From contig JAUNJE010000019.1 in NCBI GenBank assembly GCA_030533415.1, forward strand, positions 1 to 47,570: a stretch of DNA of 47,570 nucleotides, written 5' to 3'. Below, piece after piece: positions 1 through 47,570 of this stretch (position 1 is the stretch's first letter; each line of letters opens with the position of its first letter). Made by a program: the position numbers and the translations under genes. The notes beneath the pieces were generated by a model. It saw only the letters and a program-made list of their open reading frames with translations. It had not been told where the DNA came from and did not search any database. This stretch comes from Eubacteriales bacterium (GTDB lineage: Bacteria; Bacillota; Clostridia; Oscillospirales; Oscillospiraceae).

Positions 1-65
1 CTTCGGTCGCCTTTACACAAGGGAGCCTTGGGCGCTCCCGCGCCAGAGGGTTTATTGACAGTCTG
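1..65 (-). repeat. Dispersed repeat, copy A (partial)
   Basis: This is the end of a non-coding repeat seen four more times in the window. It carries the shared blocks ACAAGGGAGCCTTGG, GCGCTCCCGCGCCAGAGG and the end motif TTTATTGACAGTCTG (51-65), which is the reverse complement of the left end of copy B. The rest lies outside the window. A terminator hairpin begins one base after the element ends. Confidence 0.75.
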
Positions 66-66
66 T

Positions 67-102
67 GTGGCAGCAACTGTTGCGTTGCTGCCACGTTTTT
101 TT
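67..102 (+). terminator. Rho-independent terminator beside repeat A
   Basis: A perfect 11-bp stem (GTGGCAGCAAC at 67-77, GTTGCTGCCAC at 84-94) with a 6-nt loop is followed by GTTTTTTT. The U-tract lies on the plus strand, so it serves a gene entering from the left edge. On the minus strand no U-tract follows, so it is a poor terminator for the peptidase gene that ends at 101. Confidence 0.8.
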
Positions 103-6121: not shown

Positions 6122-7888
6122 ATGAAGAAAATGCTTGCCCTGCTGCTGGCCGCACTAATGCTCACCGGCTGCGCAGCCAATACCGTGGCGGAAGCCACCA
6201 CCGTGGAAACCACCGCCTCTACCGAAGCGGCCCCCGCGGAAACCCTGTCATCTTCCGAGCATGTTTCCCGCTTTGATTCGGAAACCGTCATCGTTCTTTC
6301 CGACGAAGGCATCACCGTCAACGGCGGCGAAGAAACGGACACCGTTTACACCTCCCATGACATCATCTATTACGAGGACAGGGATACCTACGAAAGCGGC
6401 AACCCCTACGGCGAGGGCGAGGAAAACCAGCGCCACAGCGCCGAAGAAGCCGCTGCCCACACGGTAGTCAACATCACCGCTCCCGGCGCTTACCGCGTCA
6501 GCGGCACGCTTTCCGCAGGCCAGATCCGCATAGACCTGGGGGATGACGCCTACGACGACCCCGACGCAGTCGTGGAGCTGATTCTGGAAGATGCCGATAT
6601 CACCTGCACCGTTGCCCCTGCCATTTTGTTCCTGAACACCTATGAATGTGACGGAAACTGGTCCACGGAAACCGCCCAAGCCAATGTGGACACCTCCGAC
6701 GCAGGCGCGAACCTGATTCTCTATGGCGAAAACCAGGTGTCCGGCTCCCATGTGGCCCGAATCTATAAAGACGCCGAGGGGGAAAAGAAGCTGTGGAAGC
6801 AGGACGGCGCCATCTACTCCTACATGTCCATGAACGTTTACGGTCCCGGCTCCCTGGACCTGATCGCCGACAACGAGGGTCTGGACACGGAACTGCACCT
6901 GACCATCAACGGCGGCAATATCGCCATCCGTTCCCAGGACGACGGCATCAATACCAATGAGGACGGCGTCTCCGTCACCACCATCAACGGCGGCAGCCTG
7001 CACATCATCGCGGGGCTGGGAAGCGAGGGCGACGGCATTGATTCCAACGGCTATCTCGTCATTAACGGCGGCACCGTGGTGGCCTCCGCCAATCCCGCCT
7101 CCGATGCCGGCCTGGATTCCGACCTTGGCTCCTATATCAACGGCGGCACCGTTGTCGCCCTCGGCTCCACCATGGACTGGGCGGAAAGTGACTCGGAACA
7201 GGTCACCATGAACCTGCAGTTTGCCCAGTACCAAAGCAGCGGCAGCGCCATCGTGGTTACCAAAGAGGACGGCACCGTGGTCTTTGCCTATGATCCCAGC
7301 GAGGACGAGGTCCTGGGGGAGAATATGCGTCAGTTCATGGGTGCGGTGATCTCCTGTCCCCAATTTGTCCAGGGAGAAAGCTACAACGTTTATCTGGACG
7401 GCATAGTTACCGGCAGCGATATCGGCGGTGTCTATGACATTTCCACCATCACCGCTTATGAAGGCGGCACCCAGATGCAGTATACCGGCACCGATGTTTC
7501 CATGGGCTTCGGCGGTCGTGGTGGACAGGGTCCCGGCGGCAAAGACTTCCAGGATTTTGACGGAGAACGGCCAGAGCTTCCCGACGGAGAAACCATGCCG
7601 GAAGGCGGCTTCGGCGGCCGCGGAGGGCAGAAGGAAGACGGTCCCGGTGGCTTCGGCGGAGAAAGGCCCGAAGGCTTTGGCGGGGAAATGTCTGAGGATT
7701 TTGAAGGAAAAATGCCCCTACCCGACGGGGAAACACTTCCCGAGGGAGAAACGCCCCCCGATGGGGACCGCTTTGAAGGCGGACGCCCGGACGGAGCGGG
7801 TATGAACGCCTCCGGCGAGGCCAATACCGTATTTTACATGCAGGATAAGGTCAACGCCTTTTCCGGTGTCTCGGCTGTAGCCGAATAA
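6122..7888 (+). CDS. Secreted carbohydrate-binding-like beta-helix lipoprotein
   Basis: A 588-aa lipoprotein. The signal MKKMLALLLAALMLTGC ends in a lipobox with Cys17. The next ~40 residues are a Thr/Ala/Glu linker. The main part (about 130-420) has repeated turns of the type INGG, DDGI, GDGIDSNGYLVINGG and SDLGSYINGGTV, the pattern of the Cthe_2159-like, right-handed beta-helix, acidic-polysaccharide-binding proteins often annotated as carbohydrate-binding domain-containing. The last 130 residues are low complexity, rich in GGRGG, GGFGGE and PDGE repeats, probably a flexible wall-spanning or calcium-binding tail. GAAAGAAGG precedes the start. Single gene; the ligand is inferred from the family only. 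Confidence 0.8.
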   Translation: MKKMLALLLAALMLTGCAANTVAEATTVETTASTEAAPAETLSSSEHVSRFDSETVIVLSDEGITVNGGEETDTVYTSHDIIYYEDRDTYESGNPYGEGEENQRHSAEEAAAHTVVNITAPGAYRVSGTLSAGQIRIDLGDDAYDDPDAVVELILEDADITCTVAPAILFLNTYECDGNWSTETAQANVDTSDAGANLILYGENQVSGSHVARIYKDAEGEKKLWKQDGAIYSYMSMNVYGPGSLDLIADNEGLDTELHLTINGGNIAIRSQDDGINTNEDGVSVTTINGGSLHIIAGLGSEGDGIDSNGYLVINGGTVVASANPASDAGLDSDLGSYINGGTVVALGSTMDWAESDSEQVTMNLQFAQYQSSGSAIVVTKEDGTVVFAYDPSEDEVLGENMRQFMGAVISCPQFVQGESYNVYLDGIVTGSDIGGVYDISTITAYEGGTQMQYTGTDVSMGFGGRGGQGPGGKDFQDFDGERPELPDGETMPEGGFGGRGGQKEDGPGGFGGERPEGFGGEMSEDFEGKMPLPDGETLPEGETPPDGDRFEGGRPDGAGMNASGEANTVFYMQDKVNAFSGVSAVAE

Positions 7889-7890
7889 GC

Positions 7891-7926
7891 AAAAAACGCC
7901 CTGCGGTTTTGCAAAACCGCAGGGCG
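7891..7926 (-). terminator. Left copy of a duplicated terminator hairpin
   Basis: A perfect stem, CGCCCTGCGGTTTT paired with AAAACCGCAGGGCG, occupies 7897-7926. Six A bases (7891-7896) precede it, so the U-tract exists only for minus-strand transcripts, which here means metG. On the plus strand the hairpin runs straight into repeat B without any T-run. Confidence 0.75.
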
Positions 7927-8212
7927 CAGACTGTCGATAAACCCTCTGGCGCTTATAGCGCCCAAGGCTCCCTTCTGCAAAGGCGACCGAAGGGAGTGCC
8001 TTGCGCTGAGCTGTCACGCGAACAGCGTGACTGAGGGATTGTCGCGGTAAAATGTTTCCTTTTCGCCGAAGTCCAATGCGAATTCGTAACATTCCACTGC
8101 ACAATCCCTCCGAGGCGGCTTGCGCCGCCCCACCTCCCTTTGCACAAGGGAGGCTTTGGTGCAGTGCAAATTGGTAAACTTCTACGTTTAAACTTACTTT
8201 TTCGACACACTG
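7927..8212 (+). repeat. Dispersed repeat, copy B (complete, 286 bp)
   Basis: The only copy with both ends visible. Left end CAGACTGTCGATAAA; right end, read inward, CAGTGTGTCGAAAAA: imperfect terminal inverted repeats. Internal parts: GGCGC/GCGCC stem, an AGGCTCCCTTCTGCAAAGG block, stem GTCACGC-GCGTGAC (8013-8031), GAGGGATTGT, ACAATCCCTC, stem GGCGGC-GCCGCC (8114-8129) and a CCTCCCTTTGCACAAGGGAGG palindrome-like hairpin. No coding capacity. The element is flanked on both sides, with no gap, by almost identical 30-31-base hairpins, so it seems to sit inside a former bidirectional terminator. Confidence 0.8.
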
Positions 8213-8254
8213 CGCCCTGCGGTTTTTGGAAAACCGCAGGGCGTCTTTTATTTT
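8213..8254 (+). terminator. Right copy of a duplicated terminator hairpin
   Basis: The stem of 7897-7926 recurs at 8213-8243 with a slightly different loop, followed by TCTTTTATTTT. The U-tract exists only for plus-strand transcripts, so the upstream lipoprotein mRNA is expected to end here, after reading through repeat B. Confidence 0.75.
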
Positions 8255-8297
8255 ATACGTTTTCGAGATGGAAAAGAACGAAAATCCGTATTGCGCA

Positions 8298-10256
8298 TCA
8301 GCAAAGCTTTGCGCCGGCGGGAATATCGTCGCTGACCATGATCAGGTTCAGCTTTTCCTCTCCCTTTTCCGTATGAACCGCGCTGAGCAGCATACCGTTG
8401 CTCTCCCGGCCCATCATTTTCCGGGCAGGCAGGTTGGTGATGGCCACCAGGGTCTTGCCAACCAGCTCCTCCGGCTTGTAATACTTCGCGATCCCGGACA
8501 GGATCTGGCGGTCTGTGCCTGTTCCGTCATCCAGGGTGAAGCACAGGAGTTTTTCACTCTTCTTGACAGGCTTGCAGTCCTTGACCTTTACAGCCCGGAA
8601 ATCCGACTTGCAGAAGGTGTCGAAATCAACCTTTTCTTCGGAATACGGCTCGATTTCCAGGGCAGGAACCGGGGGCTTGCTCAGCTCCTCCAAAGCCGCC
8701 AATTCCTTCTCCACATCGATTCTGGGGAACAGGGCAGGACCGCTGAGCGTTGCCGCATCCGCAGGCAGGACCCCGAACACATTCAAGCTGTCCCAATCCA
8801 TCCGCGCGCCGCCCAGCCGCTTTGCGATTTCCTCGGAGGTGCCGGGCATAAAAGGCGTCAGCAGGCCGGCGCAGATGCGCACCGTCTCCAGCAGATTGTA
8901 CAGCACCCGGGCCAGGCGGGGTTTATTTTCCTCGGACTTGGCCAACACCCAGGGAGCGTTCTCGTCGATATACTTGTTGGCCCGGGAAATGACCTTGAAA
9001 ATCTCCGCCAGCGCGTTCTGGAAAGCGAACTTCTCCATCTGCTCCTCGTATTTATCCCGCAGGGAGGCCGCTATCCGGAGCAGCTCGGCGTCCTTTTCCT
9101 CGTCGGCTGTCTGCTGGGCCGGCAGATTAGCGCCGAAATATTTCTGCGCCATGGCAACGGTACGGGACACCAGATTGCCCAGGTCATTTGCTAAGTCCAC
9201 ATTGATGGTGTTGATCAGCAGCTCATTGGAGAAGTTGCCGTCGGAGCCGAAGGGGAAGGAACGCAGCAGGAAGAACCGCAGAGCGTCCACGCCGAAGCGC
9301 TCCGCCAGAATGTAGGGATCCACCACATTGCCCTTGGATTTGCTCATTTTGCCGCCGTCCAGCAGCAGCCAGCCATGGCCGTAGACCTTCTTAGGCAGGG
9401 GCAGGTCCAGGCTCATCAGCATGGCAGGCCAAATGATGGAGTGGAAGCGGACAATCTCCTTTCCCACAAAATGCACGTCGGCAGGCCAGAAGCCCTCCAA
9501 ATCATCATACTTGTCGTTTTCAAAGCCCAGGGCGGTCATGTAGTTGAACAACGCATCAATCCAGACGTACACCACATGGCCGGGATCGAAGTCCACGGGC
9601 ACGCCCCAGGTGAAGCTTGTGCGGGAAACACACAAATCCTCCAGGCCGGGCTTGATGAAGTTATTCACCATTTCGTTGACGCGGCTCCGGGGTTCCAGGA
9701 AATCCGTGTTCTCCAACAGGTCCTGCACCCGGCCGGCATACTTGCTCAGGCGGAAGAAATAGGCTTCCTCCTCCGCGTCCTGGACCTCCCGCCCGCAGTC
9801 GGGACACTTGCCGTCTACCAGCTGGCTTTCCGTCCAAAAGGACTCACAGGGCTTACAGTACTTGCCCTTGTAGGTGCCCTTGTAGATGTCTCCGTTGTCG
9901 TACATTTTTTTGAAAATCTTCTGAATGGCCGCCACATGGTAGTCGTCGGTGGTGCGGATAAAACGGTCATAGGAAATGTTCATCAGCTTCCACAGGTCCA
10001 GCACACCGCCCTGGCCCAGGACGATGTCGTCCACAAACTGCTGCGGCGTAACGCCTGCCTCTTTGGCCTTGTCCTCGATCTTCTGGCCGTGCTCGTCGGT
10101 GCCGGTCAGAAATTTGACCTTGTAGCCCTGCAGCCGCTTGTACCGGGCCATGGCGTCCGTGGCCACGGTGCAGTAGGTGTGGCCGATGTGCAGCTTGGCA
10201 GACGGATAGTAGATGGGGGTGGTAATGTAATAATTACCTTTGCACTTTTCGCACAT
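8298..10256 (-). CDS. metG: Methionyl-tRNA synthetase
   Basis: Charges tRNA-Met in the cytoplasm. The 652-aa protein has the class I HIGH-type motif (KLHIGHT) near residue 22, a zinc knuckle pair (CKPCESF and CPDCG), the KMSKSKGN loop, an anticodon-binding helical domain and a C-terminal OB-fold tRNA-binding domain (DFRAVKVKDCKPVKKSEKLL), which makes it the long dimeric form. The ATG at 10256 follows ATAGGAGGAGA; the longer open frame reads back into the T-box terminator, so it is not used. It is a single gene controlled by the Met T-box directly upstream. It converges on the lipoprotein gene across repeat B. Confidence 0.97.
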   Translation of the reverse strand: MCEKCKGNYYITTPIYYPSAKLHIGHTYCTVATDAMARYKRLQGYKVKFLTGTDEHGQKIEDKAKEAGVTPQQFVDDIVLGQGGVLDLWKLMNISYDRFIRTTDDYHVAAIQKIFKKMYDNGDIYKGTYKGKYCKPCESFWTESQLVDGKCPDCGREVQDAEEEAYFFRLSKYAGRVQDLLENTDFLEPRSRVNEMVNNFIKPGLEDLCVSRTSFTWGVPVDFDPGHVVYVWIDALFNYMTALGFENDKYDDLEGFWPADVHFVGKEIVRFHSIIWPAMLMSLDLPLPKKVYGHGWLLLDGGKMSKSKGNVVDPYILAERFGVDALRFFLLRSFPFGSDGNFSNELLINTINVDLANDLGNLVSRTVAMAQKYFGANLPAQQTADEEKDAELLRIAASLRDKYEEQMEKFAFQNALAEIFKVISRANKYIDENAPWVLAKSEENKPRLARVLYNLLETVRICAGLLTPFMPGTSEEIAKRLGGARMDWDSLNVFGVLPADAATLSGPALFPRIDVEKELAALEELSKPPVPALEIEPYSEEKVDFDTFCKSDFRAVKVKDCKPVKKSEKLLCFTLDDGTGTDRQILSGIAKYYKPEELVGKTLVAITNLPARKMMGRESNGMLLSAVHTEKGEEKLNLIMVSDDIPAGAKLC

Positions 10257-10273
10257 ATTTTCTCCTCCTATAA

Positions 10274-10510
10274 ATAAAAAAACCGCCCTGGGATGACCCA
10301 AGGGCGACAAAATTGACGCGGTACCACCTTGATTCGCAGCTTACGCTGCCTCATGGCGCGTTAACGGGCGCACCCGAAACCGCCTACCTATCGGCGGCCC
10401 AGCTCCGAGACCATGTTCCCCTGTTCTCCCCGTGCCCACTCTCACCTTCCAGGGCTCTCTGACCGGTTCTCCCAGGGTACTCTTCTCTTCCCAGCTTTTG
10501 CAATATTGTA
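10274..10510 (-). ncRNA. T-box leader of metG
   Basis: The minus strand carries the T-box sequence AAGGTGGTACCGCG (complement of 10318-10331), which pairs with uncharged tRNA acceptor ends. It is followed by a terminator stem (10284-10306, CGCCCT with AGGGCG) and a run of U (10274-10283) just before the metG ribosome site. In Stem I the segment GGGGAACATGGTCTCGG places ATG in the specifier position followed by a purine, so uncharged tRNA-Met should bind and antiterminate. The boundaries are approximate: the 5' end is set by the promoter. Confidence 0.92.
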
Positions 10511-35959: not shown

Positions 35960-36174
35960 ATGCGGCGGTGCAAAGGCTCCCTTGTGCAAAGGGAGCAGTC
36001 AAAAATCTTTGATTTTTGACTGAGGGATTGTGCGGTAGAGAGTGGGAATTCGCCGGAACTGATGCGAAAACGTAGAAGTTGACCGCACAATCCCTCCGAG
36101 CCGCCTGACGGCGGCCCACCTCCCTTTGCACAAGGGAGGCTTTGGTGCGCTACTGGTCGGGCTTGCCGTGCAAA
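35960..36174 (+). repeat. Dispersed repeat, copy C
   Basis: A third copy of the family in copies B and D, filling most of the 355 bases between tcdA and murA. It has AGGCTCCCTTGTGCAAAGG, stem GTCAAAAATC/GATTTTTGAC (35998-36020), GAGGGATTGTGCGGTA, CGCACAATCCCTC, stem GCCGCC/GGCGGC (36100-36115), CCTCCCTTTGCACAAGGGAG and the end GTCGGGCTTGCCGTGCAAA like that of copy D. The outer ends are degenerate. Confidence 0.75.
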
Positions 36175-42679: not shown

Positions 42680-43046
42680 GCTTATCGACTGTACCCCCCG
42701 GCGAACAAGGCCGAATAGCATTCAATCCAAATTCATGCCAATCTTCCCATGAACCACTGGCGCTTACAGCGCCCCAGACTGTCGATAAATCCTCTGGCGC
42801 GGGAGCGCCCAAGGCTCCCTTGTGCAAAGGGAGCTGTCAAAAATCTCTGATTTTTGACTGAGGGATTGTGCGGTAGGGAGTGCGAATTTGCCGGAAGTTG
42901 GGCGAAATCGTAAGATGTTACCGCAACAATCCCTCCGTCTCCGCTTCGCGGAGCCACCTCAGCGCAAGGCACTTCCTTCGGTCGCCTTTGCACAAGGGAG
43001 GCTTGGGGGCGCTGCAAGTCGGGTTCGCTGGGCAAAATTGATAAGC
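42680..43046 (+). repeat. Dispersed repeat, copy D with outer inverted ends
   Basis: Most of the 515-base gap between aspS and the sigma factor gene. The core starts with CAGACTGTCGATAAA at 42775 and has the family blocks: AGGCTCCCTTGTGCAAAGG, stem GTCAAAAATC/GATTTTTGAC (42836-42858), stem CTCCGC/GCGGAG (42939-42953) and CTTTGCACAAGGGAGG. Outside it, GCTTATCGACTGTACCC (42680) and the end CAAAATTGATAAGC (43046) match each other in inverted order over some 25-30 bases, so this copy is longer than B. AAAATTTTTT-like sequence flanks both outer ends. Confidence 0.75.
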
Positions 43047-47439: not shown

Positions 47440-47487
47440 AGAGAGTGGAGCGTGTGAAGAGTGAGGAGTGAGGTCAAAAAAATTTTC

Positions 47488-47512
47488 AATAAAACGGTTT
47501 TACCGTTTTATT
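47488..47512. other. AT-rich hairpin abutting repeat E
   Basis: AATAAAACGGT (47488-47498) pairs with ACCGTTTTATT (47502-47512). Repeat E begins at the next base. Confidence 0.6.
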
Positions 47513-47570
47513 GCTGAGTGTCGAAAAAGTAAGTTGAAACGTAGAAGTTTACCAATTTGCACTGCACCAA
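47513..47570 (-). repeat. Dispersed repeat, copy E (partial)
   Basis: CTGAGTGTCGAAAAAGTAAG and the following ACGTAGAAGTTTACCAATT and TGCACTGCACCAA match the right end of copy B (8150-8212) in inverted orientation. The element continues past the window. Confidence 0.75.

Follow-up and report, generated by a model that had tools for sequence, protein, structure and literature searches.

The 286-bp element that lies between a lipoprotein-type gene and the convergent metG gene is a MITE, as it is short and present in multiple copies, carries no transposase gene, has terminal inverted repeats, and is bordered by a target-site duplication. We read it, with a probability of close to 0.9, as a non-autonomous element that was moved by a DDE transposase of the IS1182 family, with duplication of the whole target stem-loop. 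Most DDE transposons make a short target duplication, the length of which is fixed by the transposase.

The window, i.e. the whole stretch of 47,570 nucleotides that was analyzed, is contig C23 of genome G000 (2.72 Mb, 80 contigs). The features of the locus, together with two partial copies of the element at the window edges, are collected in Table 1.

Table 1. Positions of the MITE, its flanking stem-loops, the neighboring genes, and the partial copies at the edges of the window.
Feature	Position	Strand	Basis
Terminal part of a further copy (1-65), truncated at the contig edge, beside its own terminator-like hairpin (66-95)	1..95	-	
Upstream convergent gene, lipoprotein-type start, PF14262 domain	6122..7888	+	ORF list, profile match
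A-tract, equal to a T-tract for metG transcripts on the - strand	7891..7896		Sequence and terminator scan
Left copy of the target stem-loop (target-site duplication), 30 nt	7897..7926		Sequence, folding, flank alignment
286-bp MITE	7927..8212	+	~30 copies in the genome; ends
Terminal inverted repeats of the MITE	7927-7941 and 8198-8212	within + strand element	
Right copy of the target stem-loop (target-site duplication), 31 nt	8213..8243		Sequence, folding, flank alignment
T-tract for lipoprotein-gene transcripts on the + strand	8244..8254		Sequence and terminator scan
Downstream convergent gene metG (methionine--tRNA ligase)	8298..10310	-	Profile match
Terminal part of a further copy (47514-47570), truncated at the contig edge, beside its own 27-nt hairpin (47487-47513)	47487..47570	-	

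Both hairpins abut the element (the gap is 0 on either side), and their alignment shows 29 of 30 aligned bases identical, with one gap. The tract outside the left hairpin is AAAAAA and that outside the right hairpin is TCTTTTATTTT. This arrangement, an element set without a gap between two near-identical hairpins of which the left one keeps the A-tract and the right one the T-tract, had been described in the original prediction and is confirmed to the base. When folded with short flanks, the left and right hairpins reach -25.4 and -27.2 kcal/mol, respectively, in comparison with means of -10.8 and -10.7 kcal/mol for the shuffled controls, where none of 200 shuffles folds as well. A terminator consensus scan of the region 7800-8350 returned three terminator-like sites vs 0.8 expected. 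Two of them coincide with the hairpins, on the + strand for the right one and on the - strand for the left one, and the third is a weaker sub-stem within the left hairpin. The open reading frames listed within the element are mechanical only. The identity of the element with a known RNA was considered and set aside, with the two best Rfam matches in 7700-8400 at 20.5 and 16.2 bits and the corresponding gathering scores at 60 and 90. For a transcript that spans 7885-8256, the minimum-energy structure is predicted to pair the left hairpin with the right one (z -13.5); such pairing could compete with formation of the terminator hairpin.

The upstream gene codes for a protein of 588 amino acids with a PF14262 domain and a lipoprotein-type start, MKKMLALLLAALMLTGC, which we take to hold a lipobox; the product of metG matches NF008900 and TIGR00398. 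The stop codons are found at 7888 and 8298, respectively. For each of the two genes, the hairpin nearest the stop codon is without a tract on the downstream side of the gene, and the outer hairpin keeps one, which places a terminator-like hairpin ~320 bases beyond the former position. Both genes should thus still have a terminator, now past the element, and the positions of the tracts are consistent with transcripts of both genes reading through the element before they terminate.

A search of the genome with the element gave 70 matches, many of which are fragments or reverse partial matches, and about 30 full or nearly full copies, mostly of 254-261 or 285-286 bp. The set of 27 two-ended copies was composed of the 30 fetched loci, minus five with a missing or broken end (L007, L010, L019, L026, L029), plus L052 (C32) and L060 (C48). 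The two-ended copies are 254-310 bp long, with the exception of L060, a derivative of 393 bp. A direct repeat is present in the flanks of 22 of the 27, with scores of 28-64 (50 for the copy at 7927-8212), in comparison with a maximum of 23 for 702 mispaired left and right flanks taken from different copies. In all 22 the repeat is a complete stem-loop that starts 0-2 bases from the element. The duplication measures 21-34 bp and is equal to the length of the hairpin within 1 nt in 21 of the 22 copies (repeat lengths were entered by hand from the flank alignments, and those of L002 and L014, with mismatches at the edges, were counted 1-2 bases longer). The Pearson coefficient between the two lengths is only 0.66 owing to the left flank of L005, a copy with a partial tandem copy, which was miscalled as a 35-nt hairpin; the right flank gives 21, which is the repeat length. 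The remaining five copies are off the pattern: L003, L011, and L028 have unlike hairpins on either side, the flanks of L006 show no match, and L017 has an 8-bp repeat and no hairpin.

The hairpins could in principle be a component of the element and move with it as the termini of a longer repeat unit, and a genome scan indeed found a hairpin next to 81 of 100 end-like sites (some of these 100 are chance matches within genes, and one site, listed as both L026 and L263, was counted twice). The sequence of the hairpin, however, varies from copy to copy, with each site having its own, the flanks match within a copy but not across copies, and relatives free of the element have a hairpin at the site, as described below. 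The explanation was rejected and is left with practically no chance of being right. The original prediction had named the same hairpin on other copies of the element as an observation that would make it part of the element, and a different hairpin is what was found at each copy.

Several further arrangements were observed in the same genome. Two more mosaic repeats in the window, at 35966-36148 and 42775-43010, have modules in common with the element; the end at 42775 adjoins a 15-nt hairpin, with no second end found to match it at that place. The copy L263 (C73:130712-133218) is seemingly interrupted by ~2.2 kb of other DNA, and at L037 (C11:53735-53788) two copies lie back to back, with one hairpin common to both. 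Breaks of the assembly fall inside copies of the element, at both edges of the window (1-95 and 47487-47570) and at the ends of other contigs. The hairpin at 47487-47513 is also present at the matching end on contig C24, and cut ends paired by their hairpins are window 47514/C24, C64/C58, C16/C65, C39/C74, C46/C18, and C11/C34. These duplicated hairpins probably indicate contig ends that belong together, and the partner of the end at window 1-65 is probably located on C35 (the same stem with a different loop, a less exact match).

The state of the locus before insertion was approached through metG. A search of 101 genomes yielded 30 metG loci, all but one of which belong to other genomes of the genus; in at least 6 of these 29, fewer than 600 bases are available beyond metG, which is too short to show the lipoprotein gene in full. 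Among the 29 loci, a lipoprotein homologue convergent with metG was found only in L123 (genome G109), the homologue being 69% identical (main segment) and metG 88% identical to the genes of the window. The intergenic region of L123 contains no element and a single strong hairpin, bordered by an A-tract and, on the opposite side, by a T-tract; its stem core, GCCCTGCGG/CCGCAGGGC, also occurs in the window. L123 comes from another species, its hairpin is not identical to the one in the window, and it is the only relative that supports an empty site at this position. A second site (L024) is empty in four aligned relatives (G110, G065, G007, G116), in each of which the same gene ends enclose one strong hairpin, the sequence of which differs; one of them (L231) shows an additional weak, unlike hairpin. 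A match spanning the L024 site is listed for three more genomes (G081, G114, G104).

The single hairpin with both tracts in L123 suggests that the original target was a bidirectional intrinsic terminator. This is the state that the original prediction had assigned to the locus and had expected of a relative without the element, with the difference that the relative belongs to another species; two copies of one hairpin, which would have spoken against insertion, were not seen in the relatives with matching gene pairs. Convergent genes can have two terminators, and the element might have come between two separate ones that already stood side by side. Such an origin is extremely improbable in view of stems and loops that are nearly identical on both sides of this copy and of 21 others, the single hairpin of L123, and the main hairpin occurring once in each of the four relatives at the second site. 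The preferred reading, insertion with duplication of the whole stem-loop, had also been put forward in the original prediction and is upheld by the empty sites and by the 21 further copies; the insertion was placed there into the hairpin, but the element meets the hairpins at the stem base and not inside the stem.

With respect to the transposase, L060 is a deletion derivative with MITE-type ends, flanked by a 34-bp hairpin repeat with 33 of 34 bases identical. It codes for a 98-aa fragment of an IS1182-type transposase, which scores 25.7 bits on PF13751 (cut-off 25.1) and 28.4 bits on NF033551, below the cut-off of 270. No intact IS1182 transposase was found in G000 (88% complete), nor any PF13751 match besides L060. 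In related genomes, the complete 1.6-kb elements L095 and L097 reach 407 and 401 bits on NF033551. Both ends of these two elements match the two end types of the MITE at 15-17 of 18 bases, and the ends of L098 at 14-15 of 18, against a random control that gave mostly 3-7 and is weak, with a maximum of 17, as it drew also from the elements' own ends. The flanks of L097 and L098 form hairpin repeats of ~34 and ~25 bp, respectively, and those of L095 hold hairpins that are unlike. The IS1202 and IS1634 families, which make long target repeats, were considered and set aside, as the transposases scored as IS1182. The ends common to the MITE and the complete relatives, together with the transposase of the latter (NCBIfam NF033551; Pfam PF13751, PF05598, PF01609), point to an IS1182-family enzyme as the one that moved the MITE.

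Public genomes were scanned with an alignment of the transposase, a search that reached close relatives of the four query proteins, all in Bacillota-type hosts by their titles, and the best 80 loci were kept. Nineteen of them were dropped (four without an end pair, five with weak ends, and ten with a flank shorter than 25 bases). Among the 61 two-ended elements left, 45 have a flanking direct repeat with a score of at least 38, in comparison with a maximum of 34 and a 99.9th percentile of 24 for 3,660 mispaired flanks. The duplicated hairpins are 19-64 nt long, and 39 of the 45 are without any mismatch. The length of the hairpin, measured independently from the junction, agrees with that of the repeat within 2 nt in 43 of 44 cases (Spearman 0.97, Pearson 0.79), whereas 10,000 permutations gave a mean of 11 and a maximum of 23 such agreements; 44 and not 45 were measured, as L201 gave no independent hairpin, and the hairpin of L160 was called too long (68 vs 29). 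The repeat is present in all six listed copies of Bacillus sp. OV166 and in all four listed copies of Chakrabartyella piscis. The target repeats of L098 and L097 recur in L148 and L152, respectively (reversed in L152), and each of the latter is probably the same insertion as its counterpart. The 16 elements without a repeat as called comprise nine with two different hairpins, three with a hairpin on one side, two with hairpin repeats that had been missed in the calling of the ends (L153, L212), one with short diverged hairpins (L206), and one with a bad end call (L189). The longest duplicate seen is an identical 64-nt perfect palindrome on both sides of L202 (CANQQI010000051.1).

In four loci (L023 and L052 of G000, L198, and L201), the two flanking hairpins agree in the stem and have loops that are reverse complements of each other. 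The flip is clear in L023 and L052, where the reverse-complement scores are 54 vs 32 and 37 vs 27; in L198 the values are 64 vs 60, and L201, a tie at 64, was judged by reading. For L001, L014, and L028 the two scores are 1-3 apart and uninformative on this point. The flipped loops may have arisen through repair across the hairpin or through template switching at a later time.

IS1272/TnSha1 of Staphylococcus, a member of the IS1182 family, also targets hairpins with little common sequence, including terminators confirmed by RNA-seq (PMC4923244), and deletes part or all of the stem-loop, with no target duplication (PMC4923244, PMC5678879). By analogy, the stem-loop could have been replaced in the present elements too, with the flanking hairpins acquired later by recombination. 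IS1272 removes the stem-loop, however, and here it is duplicated: whole stem-loops abut the ends on both sides in 22/27 and 45/61 copies, with the junctions at the stem base, and repeats that are so often free of mismatches are not an outcome of replacement. We regard replacement as highly improbable.

An A/T-tract is found at the outer edge of the hairpin at 56 of 67 sites (17/22 for the MITE and 39/45 for the IS elements), in comparison with 16 of 67 control windows placed 45 bases further out. Most of the targets therefore look like intrinsic terminators, but the tract is not required; 11 of the 67 sites are without one by the same rule. According to a crude ORF rule, the majority of the target sites are located at gene ends; convergent genes surround 25 of 64 sites and divergent genes 8 of 64. 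The outer tracts and the location at gene ends would also be expected if the transposase were led to terminators by the transcription machinery (a paused polymerase, an R-loop, or the T-tract) rather than by DNA structure. This is judged unlikely, given the sites without a tract, the repeat length that tracks the stem-loop from 19 to 64 nt, and the stem base as the position of both junctions, whether or not the tract is on that side. The two readings are compatible, and transcription could help the hairpin to extrude.

In the duplication of the whole stem-loop by an IS1182-family enzyme, as we favor it, the transposase would pick a palindrome able to form a stem-loop, most often an intrinsic terminator, in the form of a cruciform or of hairpins on single strands. 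As the repeat length tracks the stem-loop, the two points of strand transfer would be the two bases of the stem. The ends of the element would be joined there on each strand, at the 5' feet of the stem-loops, and gap repair would then copy the complete stem-loop to either side. The junctions are most simply read in this way, with the 5' feet of two extruded hairpins as the points of attack. In the window, the target would have been the one bidirectional terminator that the lipoprotein gene and metG had in common, with the tract on the outer side retained by each hairpin copy.

The direct repeats of the IS1182 family reportedly reach ~60 bp in the ISfinder tables. Elements that target REP/BIME palindromes, e.g. 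IS1397, have a sequence-specific target and a short repeat; an intergenic palindrome likewise guides their insertion, but they do not copy any stem-loop whole.

Hairpin or palindrome targets are published for some members of the family (cited in PMC5678879 and PMC4923244), so that the targeting of hairpins and terminators by IS1182-family elements is already known. IS1182-related transposases are described as acting with or without target duplication or deletion, and as possibly recognizing the structure of the target (PMC12056078). Not every member duplicates a hairpin: a 4-bp repeat is given for ISPse1 of Paracoccus (PMC3281130) and none for IS1272 (PMC5678879). The MITEs of IS1182-family elements in Methanosarcina, related to ISMac2, are likewise short non-autonomous derivatives, in a host of another domain; their repeat sizes are small or unclear, and the portion of PMC3852290 that was available makes no mention of hairpins. 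A further precedent is pathway b of PMC5678879 (Fig 13 and Discussion), in which the stem-loop would be duplicated in full if the joining took place at its 5' feet; the outcome is the same, on paper there and in natural insertions here. In the available parts of the open literature, taken apart from ISfinder and the main reviews, no report was found of whole-hairpin duplication of target-set length as a rule of the IS1182 family.

A broader reading, for which we put the odds only slightly above even, is that IS1182-type transposases size the target by its fold and duplicate the whole stem-loop at any length. If so, IS1272 would represent a sister mode, in which the other foot is the point of transfer and the stem-loop is lost, and the four flipped-loop pairs would be traces of repair across the hairpin. 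Since most of the targets are terminator-like, each insertion would restore a terminator on both sides and be nearly harmless, which would help to explain the dozens of copies. With a repeat length that appears to be set by the target, a choice of targets by structure becomes open to direct test, and the many natural insertions exemplify a pathway formerly sketched as a possibility. They suggest that such an element can land without loss of transcription termination for either of the neighboring genes.
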